Assembly (NCBI RefSeq): GCF_900172335.1 | Contig: NZ_FWFX01000009.1 | Span: forward strand, 124,001-188,000 | From: Roseovarius albus | GTDB taxonomy: Bacteria > Pseudomonadota > Alphaproteobacteria > Rhodobacterales > Rhodobacteraceae | DNA: 64,000 bases | Direction: 5' to 3' | Shown here: positions 37,695-50,756 of the stretch, piece by piece | Position numbering within the stretch: position 1 is the first letter of the stretch | Layout of the letters: each line of letters opens with the position of its first letter | Notes under the pieces: model-generated | Told to the model about the DNA's origin: nothing | The model's database searches: none | What the model saw: the letters and a program-made list of their open reading frames with translations, nothing else | Program-made: the position numbers and the translations under genes

Positions 37695-38429
37695 TTACTG
37701 GAGCTTTTCCCAAGGCCGCCCGGCATTAGGCTGAACTTCCTGCATGAGCTTCCGCATTTCAATTTGCATTCCAGGCGCGCGTTGGCGATTGACGGTCTGA
37801 AACAGGGAACTTTCCCATAATTCATCGGGAAGGTTTCCTTGCACATACCCCTCATCTCGCGGAAGGGTCCACATATTTACTCCACACTTGATCTGATGTC
37901 GTGAAAACCTGAAGTCGACAAAGCCTGCGCTTGTGATCATGTCATCAAGCGAAGGCATGTTCTTTCCCATGGCGCAAACCGTGCCCGTCCCCAAGACATC
38001 AACCTTGATTATTTTCTTACATTCTTTTCCAAACAGAAAATTGCGCCAGCCGTGTTTACCGAAGCGCTTCTTGAAAACCCATGCATGGGCCTGATACCCG
38101 ATCGAGTTTTGCTCTAAATCGACCTTGTCCGCGAATTGCAGCATGCGTTCAATATAGTCCTTGGGATAGATGATATCGTCATCAATCGTAAAAACGACAT
38201 CATCCTTCTCAGCTGGAAAGGCAAATTTTCCAGCGTCCATTAAGTCCTTATCAGGAATCAACGGCTCAACATTGGGAAACCTGTTCAACGCTGCCGGTAT
38301 TTCAGTGTATTCGTTCAAACACAAAAACAACCTGTCCACTTGGGGGGCGATGCTGTGGATCGTATCCCACATAATGTCCTGCCTTGGCGGAAACGTTGCC
38401 ATATGTGCGCGTAACATAACCTTGATCAT
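37695..38429 (-). CDS. Glycosyltransferase-like protein
   Basis: A 244-residue cytosolic protein. VVFTIDDDIIYPKDYIERML near residues 75-94 carries a DDD motif of the DxD type, as in GT-A glycosyltransferases, and AFPAEKDDVVF leads into it. The N terminus MIKVMLRAHMATFPPRQ is a typical nucleotide-sugar-binding first strand. RDEGYVQGNLPDELWESSLFQ lies near the end. No partner glycan genes are nearby. It sits between the XRE-cupin regulator and the B12 protein, and there is no obvious link to C1 metabolism. Confidence 0.7.
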   Translation of the reverse strand: MIKVMLRAHMATFPPRQDIMWDTIHSIAPQVDRLFLCLNEYTEIPAALNRFPNVEPLIPDKDLMDAGKFAFPAEKDDVVFTIDDDIIYPKDYIERMLQFADKVDLEQNSIGYQAHAWVFKKRFGKHGWRNFLFGKECKKIIKVDVLGTGTVCAMGKNMPSLDDMITSAGFVDFRFSRHQIKCGVNMWTLPRDEGYVQGNLPDELWESSLFQTVNRQRAPGMQIEMRKLMQEVQPNAGRPWEKLQ

Positions 38430-38516
38430 TGCTCCAAGAAATCATGCCCCCACTAGACAGGGAAGAGATACCAAGAGCAATCTCTGACACTGATAAACAT
38501 CACTTTTCGATCTGAA

Positions 38517-40304
38517 CTATATCCGCCTGGAACCCCGGAACAAAACCTGCAGGTTTCGGCAGGCCCCCTCAAGATCAGTGCAGGGCATCACGCCACACTC
38601 AACCAGCTTTTTCGAAACATCGACCGGAAGGCTGGTGTTGCTCCCATCAGGAATTTCATTCAACCGCCCGCCGATCAGGACCGGCAGATCTAGGCCTGCT
38701 TGCTCCATCTCGGCCAACAACTGCTTGATATAGCGAAGGGCAACCCCGTTATAGGTGCTCAACGCGATCACATCGGCATTGTTTTGTTGGGCAAGGGAAA
38801 CGACATGGTCCGGATCACTTGAAATACCTCCATCCACGACATCAAACCCAGCCTTGGCAAACACTGAATCCAACAGCTTTTTTCCATGCTCGTGCACGTC
38901 AGTGGTTGCAGTCAGAATCCGAACTGGGATCTTGGCCAACTCCGCAAGTTCCCGACCTGCATCGGATTTCAAAAACTCATCAGCCTCTTCCTGAATTTCA
39001 CGGTAGGTGGTGGCCGGTACAACCGGCTGCCGCAGACTCGTTGGCTCTGCCTTCTGCAGCCCGCCGCCAAATCGTTGCTCCAACATTCGTCCGCCCATGC
39101 GCCTTAGAACCAACAACAGTTCAAACGGATCTGCAGTATCGACGCCAATCTCGTTAAGACCAAACAGAACGCGATCCGCAAAACGCTGCCCTTCGATCAG
39201 CAAGGTCGCAGCGATCTGATCGATCTTTTCAAGATCAAGTAATGGGGCGTAACCTTCCGCCAACTCCACCATGCGTTTCAAATGCAACTGGGCATCGATA
39301 ATCTCAGTTGCATCAGGAATCCGTTCATTTTCACTAACAGGCACCGAGTTCACGGCATGCCCTGTCGGCCTAAGCCTTTGCGCGATGACATCTGCCAACA
39401 GATAAGACGACAACCCAGCATAGTTTTCGGCGTGATTTCCCTTATAAAGCACGGTTGCGCCATAAATCTGCGACCCGGGCAAGCCATTGCTGATCTTGGA
39501 CAAAGCGCGCTGGAAGGCGATGCGTGTCAAAGGTTCCGTAAAATGATGACCATAACACACGGCATAAGATGCGCCGATTAGGTCTGTCACAATATATTTC
39601 TCAAGGATTGCCTGCCCTAAAGCACTGGTCAGATCCTCAAACATCGCGGCATAGCCGTCATCCAGATTTGAGTGAATCAGCACCGGAACAGTCTGTGCCG
39701 CGATCAACCCAAGCGCTTTGACTGTTTCTGCCGTGGTTTCGACATCGTCATTATAACCGGGGAGGCGAAACGTAAAATATTGCCCAAGATTGCCAATTGT
39801 GGTTGCCCCGGCCGCCAAAGCCGCACAAGTGTTTTCAACAGCTGCGGGAAAACCCAACATAAAGTCACCGAAATGCATGGCTGCTGGGCTGGAATGTGTC
39901 AGTCGCCAAAATTCCTCCGCATCCTGCAATAAAATGCCGGTACCCCCCGGGCGCGTCTTGCGTTGATCACGCGGATACCCCATCGACCAATCCAGACACA
40001 TCCCGAAGCGGTCAATTCTGGCACCTCGTTTGATGCAGGTGTCATAGACCTGCTTGGTGGCCTCAACTGTCAATGAAGGCTCTCGAAGCCCAAGATGCGC
40101 ATGCTGCATCACACGGCCGGCTTCGATCATTGCCAGCTTGTAGTCGATCTCATTTTTGAAACCAAACTCGCGCTGAAAGGTGCTGCTTCCAACCTGCCAG
40201 TCACCTGCCATACGCCGCCCGTCAGACAACAGCACATCGCCCTTTGGTAAATCCTGCTCGGGTAAGAAGGTTTCGCGTCCAAAAACTGCGTCATTATCCG
40301 TCAT
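38517..40304 (-). CDS. Cobalamin-binding protein with mutase-like N-terminal domain
   Basis: A 595-residue protein. Residues about 459-595 are a base-off B12-binding domain: DVHEHG at 469-474 (the DxHxxG motif that supplies the lower His ligand), ALSTYNG about 45 residues on, and LIGGRLN with the GG of the nucleotide tail site. Residues 1-440 look like an alpha/beta barrel. The arrangement resembles the large and small subunits of glutamate/methylaspartate mutase fused in one chain, but I cannot assign the reaction. The start at 40304 is the only ATG near a GAGG. It follows mtkB on the same strand, but a terminator lies between, so it probably has its own promoter. Confidence 0.75.
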   Translation of the reverse strand: MTDNDAVFGRETFLPEQDLPKGDVLLSDGRRMAGDWQVGSSTFQREFGFKNEIDYKLAMIEAGRVMQHAHLGLREPSLTVEATKQVYDTCIKRGARIDRFGMCLDWSMGYPRDQRKTRPGGTGILLQDAEEFWRLTHSSPAAMHFGDFMLGFPAAVENTCAALAAGATTIGNLGQYFTFRLPGYNDDVETTAETVKALGLIAAQTVPVLIHSNLDDGYAAMFEDLTSALGQAILEKYIVTDLIGASYAVCYGHHFTEPLTRIAFQRALSKISNGLPGSQIYGATVLYKGNHAENYAGLSSYLLADVIAQRLRPTGHAVNSVPVSENERIPDATEIIDAQLHLKRMVELAEGYAPLLDLEKIDQIAATLLIEGQRFADRVLFGLNEIGVDTADPFELLLVLRRMGGRMLEQRFGGGLQKAEPTSLRQPVVPATTYREIQEEADEFLKSDAGRELAELAKIPVRILTATTDVHEHGKKLLDSVFAKAGFDVVDGGISSDPDHVVSLAQQNNADVIALSTYNGVALRYIKQLLAEMEQAGLDLPVLIGGRLNEIPDGSNTSLPVDVSKKLVECGVMPCTDLEGACRNLQVLFRGSRRI

Positions 40305-40385
40305 CACCTCAAATTGAATACAATCCAGAGATTTGCAAGACGGTGCATAGGGGAACTCAAAAACCACTAAAGGCGCAGAAACGAA

Positions 40386-40407
40386 AACAAGGGCCAAAGC
40401 CCTTGTT
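40386..40407 (-). terminator. Rho-independent terminator after mtkB
   Basis: On the reverse strand AACAAGGGC-TTTG-GCCCTTGTT is a perfect nine-base stem followed by TTTCGTTTC. It lies 30 bases after mtkB and separates the sga-mtkA-mtkB transcript from the B12-protein gene. Confidence 0.8.
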
Positions 40408-40436
40408 CTCGCACTCTATATATAAGCCGTGTTTCT

Positions 40437-41327
40437 TTACGCCGCTTCGCCCATCACACGCGCAATGGTTTCGCCGATAACAGCGGGGTTTTCGGCAACC
40501 GTCACACCAGCGGCAGACAAAATTTCAACCTTTTCACTGGCGCTTTCGCCAAAGGCCGAGATGATCGCACCCGCGTGACCCATGGTCCGACCCTTCGGTG
40601 CGGTCAGGCCTGCAACATAAGCAACAACCGGTTTGGTAATGTGCTCGCGGATATATTCCGCTGCTTCCGCCTCTTGCGGGCCGCCGATTTCACCGATCAG
40701 GCAAATGACATCTGTATCTTCGTCTTCCTGGAAGCGCGCCAGAATATCCTTAAACGATGACCCATTAATAGGATCGCCACCGATACCGACGCTTGTGGAA
40801 ACGCCAATCCCACGCTCTTTGAGCTGGGCGGCGGCTTCATACCCCAGTGTACCCGAACGACCGACGATGCCGACGTTGCCCTCAAGATAAATGTGACCCG
40901 GCATGATCCCCAACAGCGCCTTGCCCGGGCTGATGGTGCCCGCACAGTTTGGCCCGGTCAGAACCATACGCTTGTCCTTGGGATAGCGGTACATATAGCG
41001 CTTAACCCTGATCATATCCTGCGCAGGGATACCGTCGGTGATGCAGACGCAATACCGTATGCCGGCATCCGCCGCTTCCATGATGGAATCTGCAGCAAAT
41101 GGCGGTGGTACGAACACCAGTGATGCTTCAGCACCGGTTGCTTCGATCGCTTGTTTGACCGTGTCAAAAACCGGTATACCTTCGACAACTTCGCCACCTT
41201 TGCCGGGGACAACGCCGCCGACAACATTGGTACCATATTCGATCATGTCCTTGGTGTGGAACCTGGCCATCTTGCCAGTGATGCCCTGAACGATGACGGG
41301 TGTCGCTTTATCCAGAAAAATGCTCAT
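40437..41327 (-). CDS. mtkB: Malate thiokinase small (alpha) subunit
   Basis: A 296-residue protein of the SucD fold, the same length as Methylobacterium MtkB. The CoA-binding N terminus has IVQGITGKMARFHTKDMIEYG, and the phosphohistidine is in GRTMGHAGAIISAFG near residue 240. With MtkA it converts malate, CoA and ATP to malyl-CoA in the serine cycle. Succinyl-CoA synthetase is the alternative for these folds; the neighbours (serine-glyoxylate aminotransferase and malyl-CoA lyase) favour malate thiokinase. It starts on the last base of the mtkA stop codon (TAATG), showing translational coupling. Confidence 0.9.
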   Translation of the reverse strand: MSIFLDKATPVIVQGITGKMARFHTKDMIEYGTNVVGGVVPGKGGEVVEGIPVFDTVKQAIEATGAEASLVFVPPPFAADSIMEAADAGIRYCVCITDGIPAQDMIRVKRYMYRYPKDKRMVLTGPNCAGTISPGKALLGIMPGHIYLEGNVGIVGRSGTLGYEAAAQLKERGIGVSTSVGIGGDPINGSSFKDILARFQEDEDTDVICLIGEIGGPQEAEAAEYIREHITKPVVAYVAGLTAPKGRTMGHAGAIISAFGESASEKVEILSAAGVTVAENPAVIGETIARVMGEAA

Positions 41328-46875: not shown

Positions 46876-47943
46876 TTACTTATGCAGCGCTGGCTCTGTA
46901 TCCTTATCCGGCCAAACACCAGGGCTGGTCGGCAGGCCATCGTCAAACTGGCCCAGGTAATCCAACATCATCGGGCGGTTATCGATAAACCCTTTGTAGG
47001 TCGCCAATTCTTCCGGAAGATCCCGTATAACCCGGTGCAGACGCCGGCCCCATTTAGGGGTACGAACAATATCCTGAAATGCAATCAGATAACAGCGGAT
47101 CGGGAAGACCAGCGCATTTGACCGCGGCAGACGGAAAAAGGTCTGTAGTTCGACCCGAAGATGCTGTTTAGAGCCTATATTTTCTGGCGTTAGCTCTGTC
47201 TTCTGAACACCCCATTTGTGATAATTTTCTGGGCTGGTATCGAGCAGCGGATTCACCGTCATGGTCCAATTCAAACGCCGTGCAGGTGCACCTTGCTGGA
47301 CGTTCAGCAAAAACTTCAGTGCCCGCTTGAAGATCCCCATTTCATGCGCTTTCGGCACAGGCGCATGCCATTCGAAAAAGTTCATCCCGATGTCGAAATC
47401 GAGCGACCAATCCGCCTGCGTGGTCACCATTCCGGCATCCATCCACAACATATCGTCGCGCTGGTCCAGTACAGCAAAATCACCCTGTGCCTGACGCGTA
47501 ATGTATTCCATCGGGCCATAAGGAAGAGTGCTTTCATCCATGAACGTAAACGTATCATCAATGCCCATTGGTTTGTTGATCCAACGCCAAGTATTGCCGT
47601 CGCGGTGCAGCTCAAACAGATCGGGATAATCCTCGGACTTGGACACCATGATCAGCTCGAGCAGATCCCAACCGGCTAATGTCATATGAGGCAACGACTG
47701 GCAGCGCAAAGGGTCCTGATCCAACACAATCGCCCGGTCTTGCATTTCCGAGACATAGTGCTCGTCAACGTCAAAGCGCATTTCGTAAACCGAGCCTTCT
47801 GGCCCGCCTCGGTGTTGCTCCATATTCACCGAATACATGTAGCTGTCTTCGTGGAACGGGAACGGAAAGCGTGCGATCGCACGGTCCGAGTTCTTGAAGG
47901 AATAGTCGTCGCGGAAGGTCTCGTTGTTAAACTGTATTGTCAT
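46876..47943 (-). CDS. dmmC: Dimethylamine monooxygenase, DUF3445 haem-dependent N-demethylase subunit
   Basis: A 355-residue protein of the DUF3445 family (haem-dependent oxidative N-demethylase). Recognised by RFPFPFHEDSYMYSVNMEQHRGGPEGSVYEMRFDVDEHYV near residues 25-64 and by LRVELQTFFRLPRSNALVFPIRCYL near residues 247-271. In Roseobacter-group bacteria DmmABC oxidises dimethylamine to methylamine and formaldehyde. It is the last gene of the operon, nine bases after dmmB. The order here (dmmD, dmmA, dmmB, dmmC) matches the published dmmDABC naming as I recall it. Confidence 0.88.
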   Translation of the reverse strand: MTIQFNNETFRDDYSFKNSDRAIARFPFPFHEDSYMYSVNMEQHRGGPEGSVYEMRFDVDEHYVSEMQDRAIVLDQDPLRCQSLPHMTLAGWDLLELIMVSKSEDYPDLFELHRDGNTWRWINKPMGIDDTFTFMDESTLPYGPMEYITRQAQGDFAVLDQRDDMLWMDAGMVTTQADWSLDFDIGMNFFEWHAPVPKAHEMGIFKRALKFLLNVQQGAPARRLNWTMTVNPLLDTSPENYHKWGVQKTELTPENIGSKQHLRVELQTFFRLPRSNALVFPIRCYLIAFQDIVRTPKWGRRLHRVIRDLPEELATYKGFIDNRPMMLDYLGQFDDGLPTSPGVWPDKDTEPALHK

Positions 47944-47952
47944 CTTGTTTCC

Positions 47953-48939
47953 CTATCGGTCCAGAACCAGCGATTTGCCGATGAAACGGCTGACGCAGGG
48001 CATGATTTTCTTGCCACTTTCGTGATCTTCGGGCTCAAGCCAGTGATCACGGTGAATGAACTCACCATCGAATTCGACCACATCGGTTTCGCATTGGCCG
48101 CAGGCGCCACCCCGGCAAAGGAAGGGCGCTTCAACACCCGCACGTTCAATTGCTTCAAGAAGGCTTTCGTGCTCGCCAACTTCAATCACCTTGTCCGACT
48201 TGCACAGGCGTACTTGAAATGGCTTGCCAGGTTGAGGGGCCAAAAATTCCTCGGAATGCACATTATCCGATGGCCATCCTGCCGCTTCGGCTGTGTTGTG
48301 TACCCAATTGATCATGCCAGCCGGTCCGCAAATATAGATATGCGTGCCCAAGGGCTGGCCAGCCAACAGGCCATCAAGATCAATCGCCTGCTTCTGGTCA
48401 TCATAGTAAATATGCACGTTGTTGGGATAATGTTCTGTCAGATCAGCCGCGTAGGTTGCCAAAGCCTCGGAACGGCAGGCATAATGCAGCTCCCAATTGC
48501 CATTGAGGCGCTCAAGCTGTGCGATCATTGCCTTGAATGGCGTGATCCCGATGCCACCGGCCAAAAACACATGTTTCTTAGCCCGCAGATCCAGCGAAAA
48601 CAGGTTTACCGGATAGGTCAGCGTCATCTCATCACCAACCTTGACGTTCCGGTGCATAAACAGAGACCCACCACGGCCTTCGTCATCGCGCCGCACCGAG
48701 ATGCAATACTTCGAGGTATCTGACGGGTCGCTCATCAATGAGTAAGGATTCAGACGCGTGATATCGCCGTCCTGCATCTCCACAACGGTATGCGCACCGC
48801 CAGAGAAGGTCGGGAATGCGCCACCATCGCGGCGCTTGAATTCAAAACGCGTGACCAGATCGTTCAGCGGTACAACAGCATCGACGATAACTTTGATCTT
48901 TTCAGCGCCAGCTTTAGCTTTTTGGGGTGCTGCACTCAT
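47953..48939 (-). CDS. dmmB: Dimethylamine monooxygenase reductase subunit
   Basis: A 328-residue oxygenase reductase of the PDR/VanB type. An FMN/ferredoxin reductase-like barrel (about 15-115, with FSGGAHTVVEMQDGD) is followed by an NAD(P) domain (VFLAGGIGITPFKAMIAQLE near residue 121) and a C-terminal plant-type [2Fe-2S] domain with the ligands in CRGGACGQCETD near residue 280 and a later Cys in MPCVSRF. It passes electrons from NAD(P)H to the haem subunit. Starts by four-base overlap with the dmmA stop. Confidence 0.9.
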   Translation of the reverse strand: MSAAPQKAKAGAEKIKVIVDAVVPLNDLVTRFEFKRRDGGAFPTFSGGAHTVVEMQDGDITRLNPYSLMSDPSDTSKYCISVRRDDEGRGGSLFMHRNVKVGDEMTLTYPVNLFSLDLRAKKHVFLAGGIGITPFKAMIAQLERLNGNWELHYACRSEALATYAADLTEHYPNNVHIYYDDQKQAIDLDGLLAGQPLGTHIYICGPAGMINWVHNTAEAAGWPSDNVHSEEFLAPQPGKPFQVRLCKSDKVIEVGEHESLLEAIERAGVEAPFLCRGGACGQCETDVVEFDGEFIHRDHWLEPEDHESGKKIMPCVSRFIGKSLVLDR

Positions 48940-49544
48940 TTGTAAAGCTCCACTGATTCGGGCACATTTCCGGGGTCTTCTGCATCAATGCAAACCCCTT
49001 GAAATGCCGCCAGACGGCGCGAATAGTGATCGCGCACAAACAGGTTTAGGCCGCAATGCGAACAAACGAACGGATCGGTCATCACATCTTCGGTGATGCC
49101 TTTGCAGTGTACACATTGCATGCGGCGTGCAATGGATCCACGATGTTCCTGTTGAATGGACGTGTGAGGGATGCCGGCCGCCATCGCTTCGTTCTGGGCT
49201 TGGCCCATTAGGCCCTCGGTCCCGGTTAGATAAACCTGAAGACCCATATGTGCGTCTTCCAGCACCTTACGCAAACGTTGCAGAGACGCCTCGTAACTGG
49301 GGCTGACATGCAATTGCCGCGGCTTCAACGCTTGCAACTTTTCGACAAATGTCTCGCCCGTCCCCTTCGGGATATAAATGATATGTGCATTCGCCACCAA
49401 TTCGGCGTCTTGCTTGGCAAGGTCTAGAATGGCTTCTGCACCTTCAGCATCTGCTATCATCAAATGAGCCGGGCCTTTGCGGGGCTCCAGCGTTCCGTAA
49501 ACCGGGCGGCTTGTAATACTTTCCGGAAATTTGAATATCGACAT
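48936..49544 (-). CDS. dmmA: Dimethylamine monooxygenase subunit DmmA
   Basis: A 202-residue protein of the DmmA family. The C-terminal quarter holds two CxxC pairs, CVHC and CSHC (about residues 140-160), like a rubredoxin or zinc ribbon, plus a last Cys in GVCIDAEDPGNVPE. The N-terminal region has an SRPVYGTLEPRKGPAHLMIADAEGAE stretch similar to a flavodoxin-reductase-like alpha/beta fold. It is required with DmmB and DmmC for dimethylamine oxidation in the family. The start at 49544 has AAAGGA six bases upstream and was preferred to 49565. A hairpin lies between it and dmmD. Confidence 0.88.
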   Translation of the reverse strand: MSIFKFPESITSRPVYGTLEPRKGPAHLMIADAEGAEAILDLAKQDAELVANAHIIYIPKGTGETFVEKLQALKPRQLHVSPSYEASLQRLRKVLEDAHMGLQVYLTGTEGLMGQAQNEAMAAGIPHTSIQQEHRGSIARRMQCVHCKGITEDVMTDPFVCSHCGLNLFVRDHYSRRLAAFQGVCIDAEDPGNVPESVELYK

Positions 49545-49576
49545 TGCTTCCTTTGGTCCTTCCACACTTGAAATGA

Positions 49577-49603
49577 AAAGGGCACCCGCGCGGGATGCCC
49601 TTT
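49577..49603 (-). terminator. Hairpin between dmmD and dmmA (attenuator-like)
   Basis: On the reverse strand AAAGGGCA and TGCCCTTT close a GC-rich centre (CCCGCGCGGG), and TTTTCATTT follows. It has terminator character although it lies inside the operon, eight bases after the dmmD stop, so it may lower transcription into dmmABC or protect the dmmD message. Confidence 0.65.
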
Positions 49604-49610
49604 GTTCAGA

Positions 49611-50756
49611 TCAGCCCTTTGCGGTGCGGATCGATTTGTCTTGATCGTAGAATGGCATCTCTTCGGCGGTGCAGGCGATTTCTGTACCGTCACCGTTGCG
49701 TACCGTCAGCTTGGTGCCCGGTTTCGCGCACTCAACTGGCATCCGCGAGATACCTACGTTGTGCTTGTTAACAGATGAGTACATGCCAAATGTCACGACA
49801 CCAACTTCCTTGCCATCTTGCAGCAGCGTTGCTCCCTCATCTGCGGGTGTGACCCCTTCAAGCACGACGCCGTAGATTTTGAAGCGCTCCTTGCCTTGGG
49901 CGGCATAGTGATTCTCGGCACCGATAAAGCCCGTCTTGCCCGGGGAAACGGTGAACTCAAGGCCCAGTTCCCAAAGAGTGTCGCCGCATGGCTCATCGTC
50001 AAACGGATAGGTTTCCGAGTTATCGCCGGGATAGAACAGGAGATAGCTTTCAGTCCGCAACAGATCAAGGGTTGAGAACTGCACCGGAGTGATGCCCATA
50101 TCAGAACCATCAGATAGAATGCTGTCCCACAGGTGAATGGCATCTTTAGCCTGACAGAAAATCTCGTATCCGCGCTCACCAGTGTAACCTGTGCGTGAAA
50201 TCATCACCGGGCAGCCAAACAGCTTGGTCTGCATGATGCCGAAGTAGGCCAGATCGCGGATGCCTGGCACATGTTTGGCAAGGAAGTCCACGGCCACGGG
50301 ACCCTGCAGCGACATGTCATGCAGGTTATCGTCAAAAATCACAGCGCAGTTTTTACCCGCAGCCACTGCTGTAAGCTGCTCCATGCCGGCACCAGTGCCA
50401 TGCACAACCAACCAAGTGTTCACCGACAAGCGGTAGATGATGCAGTCATCAATGAACTTGCCTTCTTCATTCAGGATCGAGGCGTAGGTCGACCGTCCGG
50501 GCATGATTTTTTCAACATTCCGAGTGGTGACACGGTCAATCACTTGCGCAGCATGCTCGCCCACCACGTGGACTTTCTTCAGTCCGGAAACATCCATCAG
50601 ACCCGCCTTGGTGCGAATCGCTGTATAGTCGGCTTCTGCTCGTTCAGGGGAATGGTCATAGAACCACGCGGTCCCCATTCCGTTCCAATCTTCCAGCTCT
50701 CCGCCAATTTCGGCATGCCGTTGCGACAGTGCTGATGTTCTCCAGATGATAGCCAT
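49611..50756 (-). CDS. dmmD: GcvT-like tetrahydrofolate-dependent aminomethyltransferase DmmD
   Basis: A 381-residue GcvT/DmdA-fold protein. Recognised features are KAGLMDVSGLKKVHVVGEHAAQVIDRVTTRNVE near residues 50-82, CIIYRLSVNTWLVVHG, and ISRTGYTGERGYEIFCQAKDA near residue 191. By its position ahead of dmmABC it should capture the formaldehyde-level C1 unit from N-demethylation on tetrahydrofolate. DMSP demethylase (DmdA) has the same fold, but this N terminus and the dmm context argue against that. GGAGG lies seven bases before the ATG. Confidence 0.85.
   Translation of the reverse strand: MAIIWRTSALSQRHAEIGGELEDWNGMGTAWFYDHSPERAEADYTAIRTKAGLMDVSGLKKVHVVGEHAAQVIDRVTTRNVEKIMPGRSTYASILNEEGKFIDDCIIYRLSVNTWLVVHGTGAGMEQLTAVAAGKNCAVIFDDNLHDMSLQGPVAVDFLAKHVPGIRDLAYFGIMQTKLFGCPVMISRTGYTGERGYEIFCQAKDAIHLWDSILSDGSDMGITPVQFSTLDLLRTESYLLFYPGDNSETYPFDDEPCGDTLWELGLEFTVSPGKTGFIGAENHYAAQGKERFKIYGVVLEGVTPADEGATLLQDGKEVGVVTFGMYSSVNKHNVGISRMPVECAKPGTKLTVRNGDGTEIACTAEEMPFYDQDKSIRTAKG

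Follow-up and report, generated by a model that had tools for sequence, protein, structure and literature searches.

A candidate glutamate-mutase-class radical mutase in Roseovarius albus: a fused cobalamin protein encoded beside serine-cycle genes

We propose, with a probability of roughly 0.6, that the fused B12 protein encoded next to mtkB in Roseovarius albus is a single-chain adenosylcobalamin-dependent radical mutase of the glutamate-mutase class. The cofactor form, the fold and the chemistry are predictions, and the protein would serve an accessory, patchily spread catabolic route for some acid, not the serine cycle. Few adenosylcobalamin mutases are known, and every one of them has led to a pathway. 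The family described here occurs in two phyla, stands in catabolic gene rows at several loci and once in tandem, and has a putative catalytic domain without a Pfam or NCBIfam model; knowledge of its substrate would establish a new route of catabolism in roseobacters and rhizobia. The analysis also corrects a tempting misreading, in that an mtkAB neighbour is not evidence for a new serine-cycle route to glyoxylate.

Gene, domains and conserved residues

The window, meaning the whole stretch of DNA analysed, comprises 64,000 nucleotides of contig NZ_FWFX01000009.1. Its features relevant to this work are the following.

38517..40304, minus strand: fused B12 protein gene, 595 aa from ATG
38985..40304, minus strand: N-terminal domain, residues 1-440, putative catalytic (barrel) domain; matches no named family, with a collinear, non-significant GlmE profile match
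39330..39332, minus strand: Glu325, invariant in 45/45 relatives, placed on the ribose-binding GlmE Glu330 in a weak alignment
38664..38924, minus strand: B12-binding domain, residues 461-547, PF02310 (E 3.9e-14), without the PF02607 cap
38883..38900, minus strand: DVHEHG (DxHxxG) motif, residues 469-474, with His471 as the presumed cobalt ligand
40381..40411, minus strand: hairpin with T-rich tail after mtkB, a likely intrinsic terminator by fold test

The open reading frame reported in the initial annotation was borne out, with its ATG at 40304 and its stop codon ending at 38517. An alternative upstream TTG at 40397 would give a protein of 626 aa, but the alignments of two relatives (L001 and L002) begin at Met1, and the ATG is therefore preferred. 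An Rfam search of positions 28000-52000 returned zero matches, and a simple scan of 38300-40600 found no promoter-like site.

The C-terminal part had been read initially as carrying the DxHxxG, SxL-like and GG elements of cobalamin proteins, and this holds: PF02310 matches at 53 bits (cut-off 32.1), and the motifs are D469-V-H471-E-H-G, S516-T-Y-N519-G520 at the SxL position, and G545-G546. Invariant residues of this domain in 45/45 relatives include Asp469, His471, Asn519, Gly520, Gly545, Gly546 and Asn549. Two observations count against the glutamate-mutase-class reading, namely the replacement of the SxL leucine by Tyr518 and the B12 domain of one relative (L050), which falls under the Pfam cut-off (PF02310 at 27.2 versus 32.1 bits).

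The B12 domain by itself fails to separate mutases from MetH (51 bits for the MetH model and 46 bits for the GlmS model of NCBIfam), and its score, as high with MetH as with mutases, would suit a methylcobalamin-dependent methyltransferase with a fused corrinoid domain, acting on a methylated amine or amino acid. Such a role also draws on the N-demethylase-like and GCV_T-type genes of the window, and on a corrinoid protein near the relative at L096, together with MttB-like and pterin methyltransferase-like genes that were both read from sequence. Both methyltransferase-type corrinoid proteins scanned as positive controls (2/2) carry the helical cap PF02607, whereas it was found in 0/20 family members scanned and in 0/5 members scanned together with the controls, four of these five being new. 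GlmS and an Ecm-like protein scanned alongside lack PF02607, as the fused family does. Because the cap is absent, a methyltransferase-type corrinoid protein is disfavoured; the presence of GlmL/MutL and BtuR beside relatives and the invariance of Glu325 also speak against it, and we consider this alternative quite improbable.

The N-terminal domain had been called barrel-like, about 440 residues long; the domain stands as a region without family match, and a barrel is probable by inference. Its 440 residues gave no significant Pfam match in this protein and 16 members. When the threshold was relaxed to E up to 10 in the 16 members, three families appeared at chance level, in one member each, and PF06368 (Met_asp_mut_E) was not among the matches. 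PF01642 (MM_CoA_mutase) was found neither in this protein nor in the 16 members and was matched by the positive control L010, while NCBIfam matches of the window protein at E up to 1 were confined to the B12 part and its edge. PDB sequences gave no significant match to the domain, used alone or as a profile, and the profile search at E up to 10 returned five chance-like matches (best E 0.16). Outside the B12 domain, the residues invariant in 45 relatives include Asp147, Asp216, Asp224, Glu235, Glu325 and Glu409, and three arginines are nearly so (Arg99 in 43/45, Arg115 in 44/45 and Arg328 in 43/45).

Comparison with known cobalamin mutases

The initial annotation had suggested that both subunits of a glutamate/methylaspartate-type mutase are fused in this protein, and had proposed a comparison of its N-terminal domain with mutase and methyltransferase profiles. 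Ten GlmE sequences were aligned into a profile and compared with the N-terminal domain of the family by hhalign, which returned a non-significant probability of 2-3%. The profile score of 26.6 lay below that of the reversed profile (27.2) and that of the highest-scoring of 199 shuffles (28.4); a second GlmE profile comparison scored 28.3, with nulls as high in 2/120. The alignment is collinear over 294-333 columns, covering most of the N-terminal domain, while the 200 nulls of the 26.6-score comparison reached at most 129. Thirteen unrelated proteins, compared as single sequences, gave scores of 12.6-22.4 and alignments of 66 columns at most; of six GlmE sequences compared singly, four did no better than these. 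A comparison with the Ecm-like barrel aligned only 50 columns. Homology to GlmE is therefore at most suggestive, the alignment differing from its nulls in length and not in score. The fused-mutase suggestion remains the best reading, favoured by the GlmL/MutL genes at 4/43 loci and the missing cap, even though the GlmE match is not significant.

Six GlmE residues, Arg66, Arg100, Arg149, Glu171, Tyr177 and Tyr181, which we take to be its substrate residues, are invariant in the 10 GlmE rows, and the alignment with the family is too weak for mapping them. In the same weak profile alignment, Glu325 falls on GlmE Glu330, the residue described as holding the adenosyl ribose (PMC4413051, PMC3958899).

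A mechanism can be sketched from the motifs and from the enzyme class. The C-terminal Rossmann domain would bind cobalamin base-off through His471, and the N-terminal domain, probably a barrel, would cap the cofactor, with Glu325 holding the adenosyl ribose, and would bind a small acid, either carboxylic or amino. Homolytic cleavage of the Co-C bond would generate an adenosyl radical that takes a hydrogen from the substrate, after which an adjacent carbon group would migrate; in some lineages, GlmL/MutL would exchange the damaged cofactor.

Among characterised systems, glutamate mutase (GlmS/GlmE; PF02310 + PF06368) resembles the window protein in having a B12 domain without the helical cap, in GlmL standing beside four relatives, and in the placement of Glu325 on Glu330 within a weak, collinear profile alignment spanning most of the N-terminal domain. 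The window protein differs in being one chain, in its catalytic-B12 order and in having no PF06368, and its genome is without GlmL. GlmS-GlmE fusions (L076 and L077) likewise have both parts in one chain, with a DxHxxG stretch (read from sequence) before PF06368, but their B12 part is N-terminal and their PF06368 domain is clear. A third candidate fusion, L080, was judged by length only to have the same B12-first order; a decarboxylase-like ORF (read from sequence) neighbours L076 and an amino acid racemase gene neighbours L080. The methylmalonyl- and ethylmalonyl-CoA mutases (PF01642) share a single-chain arrangement, with the catalytic barrel first and the B12 domain at the C-terminus, and differ in that the window protein has no PF01642 and aligns with the Ecm-like barrel over the short stretch given above.

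The 2-methyleneglutarate mutase (Mgm) of Eubacterium barkeri is a single-chain adenosylcobalamin mutase of about 614 aa with a C-terminal B12 domain that performs a carbon-skeleton rearrangement. The window protein could be its orthologue or close relative, a special case of the preferred reading that we regard as unlikely; if the Mgm sequence proves homologous, the fused family joins an already known kind. The two agree in architecture and size, each being a single chain of roughly 600 aa whose B12 domain is C-terminal. One gene row, at L064, reads PhyH, B12 gene, P5C-reductase-like gene, PEP-mutase/ICL-family lyase, transporter and flavoprotein genes (read from sequence) and MmgE/PrpD, and lyases and hydratases of these kinds are used after methylitaconate. 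However, such downstream genes were noticed in L064 only, where the lyase scores under the cut-offs of the matched NCBIfam models, and we know of no case in which GlmL/MutL serves Mgm, which counts against this relationship. A 2009 survey detected no Mgm in the genomes available at that time (PMC2667541), so the enzyme had been poorly sampled. Another B12 protein family predicted there has an N-terminal B12 part and octopine-dehydrogenase neighbours, and is a different family (PMC2667541).

Neighbouring genes and the serine cycle

Neighbours were counted within a 5 kb radius at 42 loci with a called gene; the counts are neither complete nor independent, as the sequence at some loci does not reach 5 kb beyond the gene and several loci share one genome. 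The truncated L025, two G537 fragments and the genus matches L104-L111 were left out, and L073 falls outside the 42 loci, its B12 gene running off the contig. MutL lies near the B12 gene in 3/42 loci, or 4/43 when L073 is included, and a GlmL/MutL gene (Pfam MutL) stands directly beside it in L007, L073, L074 and L096, which belong to two phyla. PMC4682846 presents GlmL as a reactivase of glutamate mutase. The L007 row consists of an amino-acid transporter (read from sequence), the corrinoid adenosyltransferase BtuR/CobO, a short-chain dehydrogenase, MutL and the B12 gene; its MutL scores 461 bits with the GlmL model (cut-off 475) and 346 bits with the GlmL family model (cut-off 204), and L007 is the one MutL locus with BtuR/CobO. 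The mutase reading is favoured because of these 4/43 GlmL/MutL neighbours and the BtuR/CobO gene of L007. Counting against this reading, MutL was found genome-wide in only 2/26 alphaproteobacterial carriers, and the window's genome contains none at 1e-10.

A P5C-reductase-like gene lies within 5 kb in 17/42 loci and about 7 kb away in L021 and L099, with domains PF03807 + PF14748 in the two that were scanned. A proC-like match in L006 (85 bits) was taken as an ordinary proC-like gene and excluded from the 17, and the linkage occurs in 0/7 loci of the window's clade (the window and L001-L006). A profile of this gene exceeded 290 bits in 14/35 carriers, always on the contig of the B12 gene and no more than about 7 kb from it, and did so in 0/16 non-carriers (best 203 bits). 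The test is partly circular: the profile was built from the linked genes of 12 of the 14 genomes, which leaves G627 and G900 as the only new ones, and the 290-bit threshold was set in retrospect. A PhyH-type gene is nearby in 6/42 loci, one of them weak (L071, 77 bits).

The P5C-reductase-like neighbour could take a cyclic imine, which bears on whether the protein is an aminomutase that depends on both PLP and B12, as ornithine 4,5-aminomutase and lysine 5,6-aminomutase do. The GlmL-like protein of L007 also matches a GlmL-related ornithine-degradation model, under its cut-off (317 versus 600 bits). PLP aminomutases bind PLP through a lysine, which is Lys144 in 5,6-LAM (PMC3958899). A PLP aminomutase is disfavoured because no lysine is invariant anywhere in the 45 relatives (best column K56, 42/45); a Pfam aminomutase match is absent from the window protein and 16 members as well, and we consider this alternative extremely improbable.

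Tentatively, and at rather worse than even odds, we suggest that the family is an undescribed class of adenosylcobalamin carbon-skeleton mutase with its own catalytic-domain family and a rearrangement new to biology, acting in the aerobic catabolism of small amino or carboxylic acids. Its several lineages would comprise one with GlmL, one with the P5C-reductase-like partner and sometimes a PhyH dioxygenase, one with an aldehyde dehydrogenase, and a free-standing one in roseobacters. The open-access literature yielded no description of the family, which is weak evidence of its absence from print.

Several other rows were observed. L099 and L021 hold large catabolic clusters around the B12 gene, with 2-oxoacid dehydrogenase E1/E2-like genes, a fumarate-reductase-type flavoprotein, dehydrogenases and a branched-chain-type transporter. 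The B12 gene and MutL of L096 are surrounded by a beta-eliminating lyase, by a corrinoid protein accompanied by methyltransferase-like genes, and by a betaine-type transporter; the latter two assignments come in part from reading the sequence. In Bacillota, G1265 has two diverged copies, L097 and L098; an aldehyde dehydrogenase-like gene, scanned with Pfam for L097 only, comes before each of them, and a gene for a 358-aa protein comes after. In the window's own genome, a P5C-reductase-like paralogue (147 bits; L100, G000:C23) lies by two old-yellow-enzyme-type flavoproteins, one Pfam-scanned and the other read from sequence.

The position of the gene in the window had led to the proposal that its product is a carbon-skeleton mutase working with mtkAB, sga and mcl in glyoxylate regeneration or C1 assimilation. 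The mtkA product reaches 733 bits with the malate-CoA ligase beta model (cut-off 604); the only models whose cut-off mtkB passes are those for succinate-CoA ligase alpha, and mtkB ends just upstream of the fused B12 gene. Besides this adjacency, the proposal can draw on L063, where a crotonyl-CoA carboxylase/reductase gene (556 bits, cut-off 379) comes after the B12 gene. Against it, mtkA was found inside the 5 kb radius at 1/42 loci, the window itself. Five foreign mtkAB loci, belonging to the carriers G979-G981 and the non-carriers G002 and G010, had no B12 gene in the 3.7-5.8 kb after mtkB (0/5, one being partly unreadable there), so that the linkage to mtkAB sought as a check is not conserved; in 4/5 the gene after mtkB is D-2-hydroxyacid dehydrogenase-like (read from sequence). 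MtkA at ≥66% identity is present in only 11/33 carrier genomes (26 from the family, class and phylum searches plus the genomes of L001-L007) versus 3/16 family-mates without the B12 gene, a cut set after the gap to 60% had been seen and whose lowest match, in G582, is partial (residues 1-297).

The window's genome already carries Ccr (622 bits, cut-off 379) and, about 3 kb from it on the same contig, an acyl-CoA mutase that by its place looks like ethylmalonyl-CoA mutase; because of these two genes, a known glyoxylate route is probably present. The terminator that had been noted after mtkB is real as a fold (56 nt, -26.6 kcal/mol, z -5.9, with 0/200 shuffles as stable), and a consensus terminator scan did not list it. 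Since this strong hairpin with a T-rich tail separates mtkB from the B12 gene, the latter probably has its own transcript. Serine-cycle linkage is rejected by neighbourhood and by co-occurrence, a glyoxylate or C1 role is highly improbable, with relatives in 8/60 genomes of the genus, and the location beside serine-cycle genes looks like an accident of the window's genome. Elsewhere in the window, a gene resembling haem-dependent oxidative N-demethylase (PF11927) and one of the GCV_T type lie at 46876-50756; near the serine-cycle genes, they probably form a cluster for the demethylation of methylated amines.

Distribution and phylogeny

One scan of genome contigs found seven loci (L001-L007), six of them in roseobacters and relatives and the seventh (L007) in an Oscillospiraceae MAG at 36% identity. 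In whole-genome searches, a relative was present in 8/60 genomes of the genus, 9/248 of the family, 17/385 of the class, 4/398 of the phylum and 3/299 of the phylum of L007; each count includes the genome of the query or centre, and the samples overlap. The versions of the seven other carriers in the genus are only 49-52% identical to the window protein, whereas those of Ruegeria, Leisingera and Halocynthiibacter are 68-71% identical, which suggests horizontal transfer of the gene. Near full-length relatives were also found on eight plasmid records (Phyllobacterium, Neorhizobium, Sinorhizobium and Shinella), where full-length relatives are annotated as 'cobalamin-dependent protein', 'hypothetical protein' or not at all; viral contigs held no relative.

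A tree of 45 rows was built with IQ-TREE and rooted at the midpoint. The six rows of the window clade form one clade with support 100/100, and the four MutL-linked rows lie outside a 39-row alphaproteobacterial clade. As judged from this placement, MutL may have been the ancestral first partner, later lost; the tree has long branches at L033 and L074 and an odd letter make-up in eight rows, including the MutL rows L074, L050 and L096.

Three further loci show irregular copies. L006 (7908-9790) holds a 71% relative split across two frames, either a pseudogene or a sequencing error. L025 (8734-9699), from Rhizobium lentis, lies near an IS66 transposase and holds a truncated relative that matches 216 residues of the query and carries the annotation DUF1349 protein. 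L062 (G552:C20) is a tandem array of four full-length B12 gene copies and one interrupted copy, followed by two P5C-reductase-like genes.
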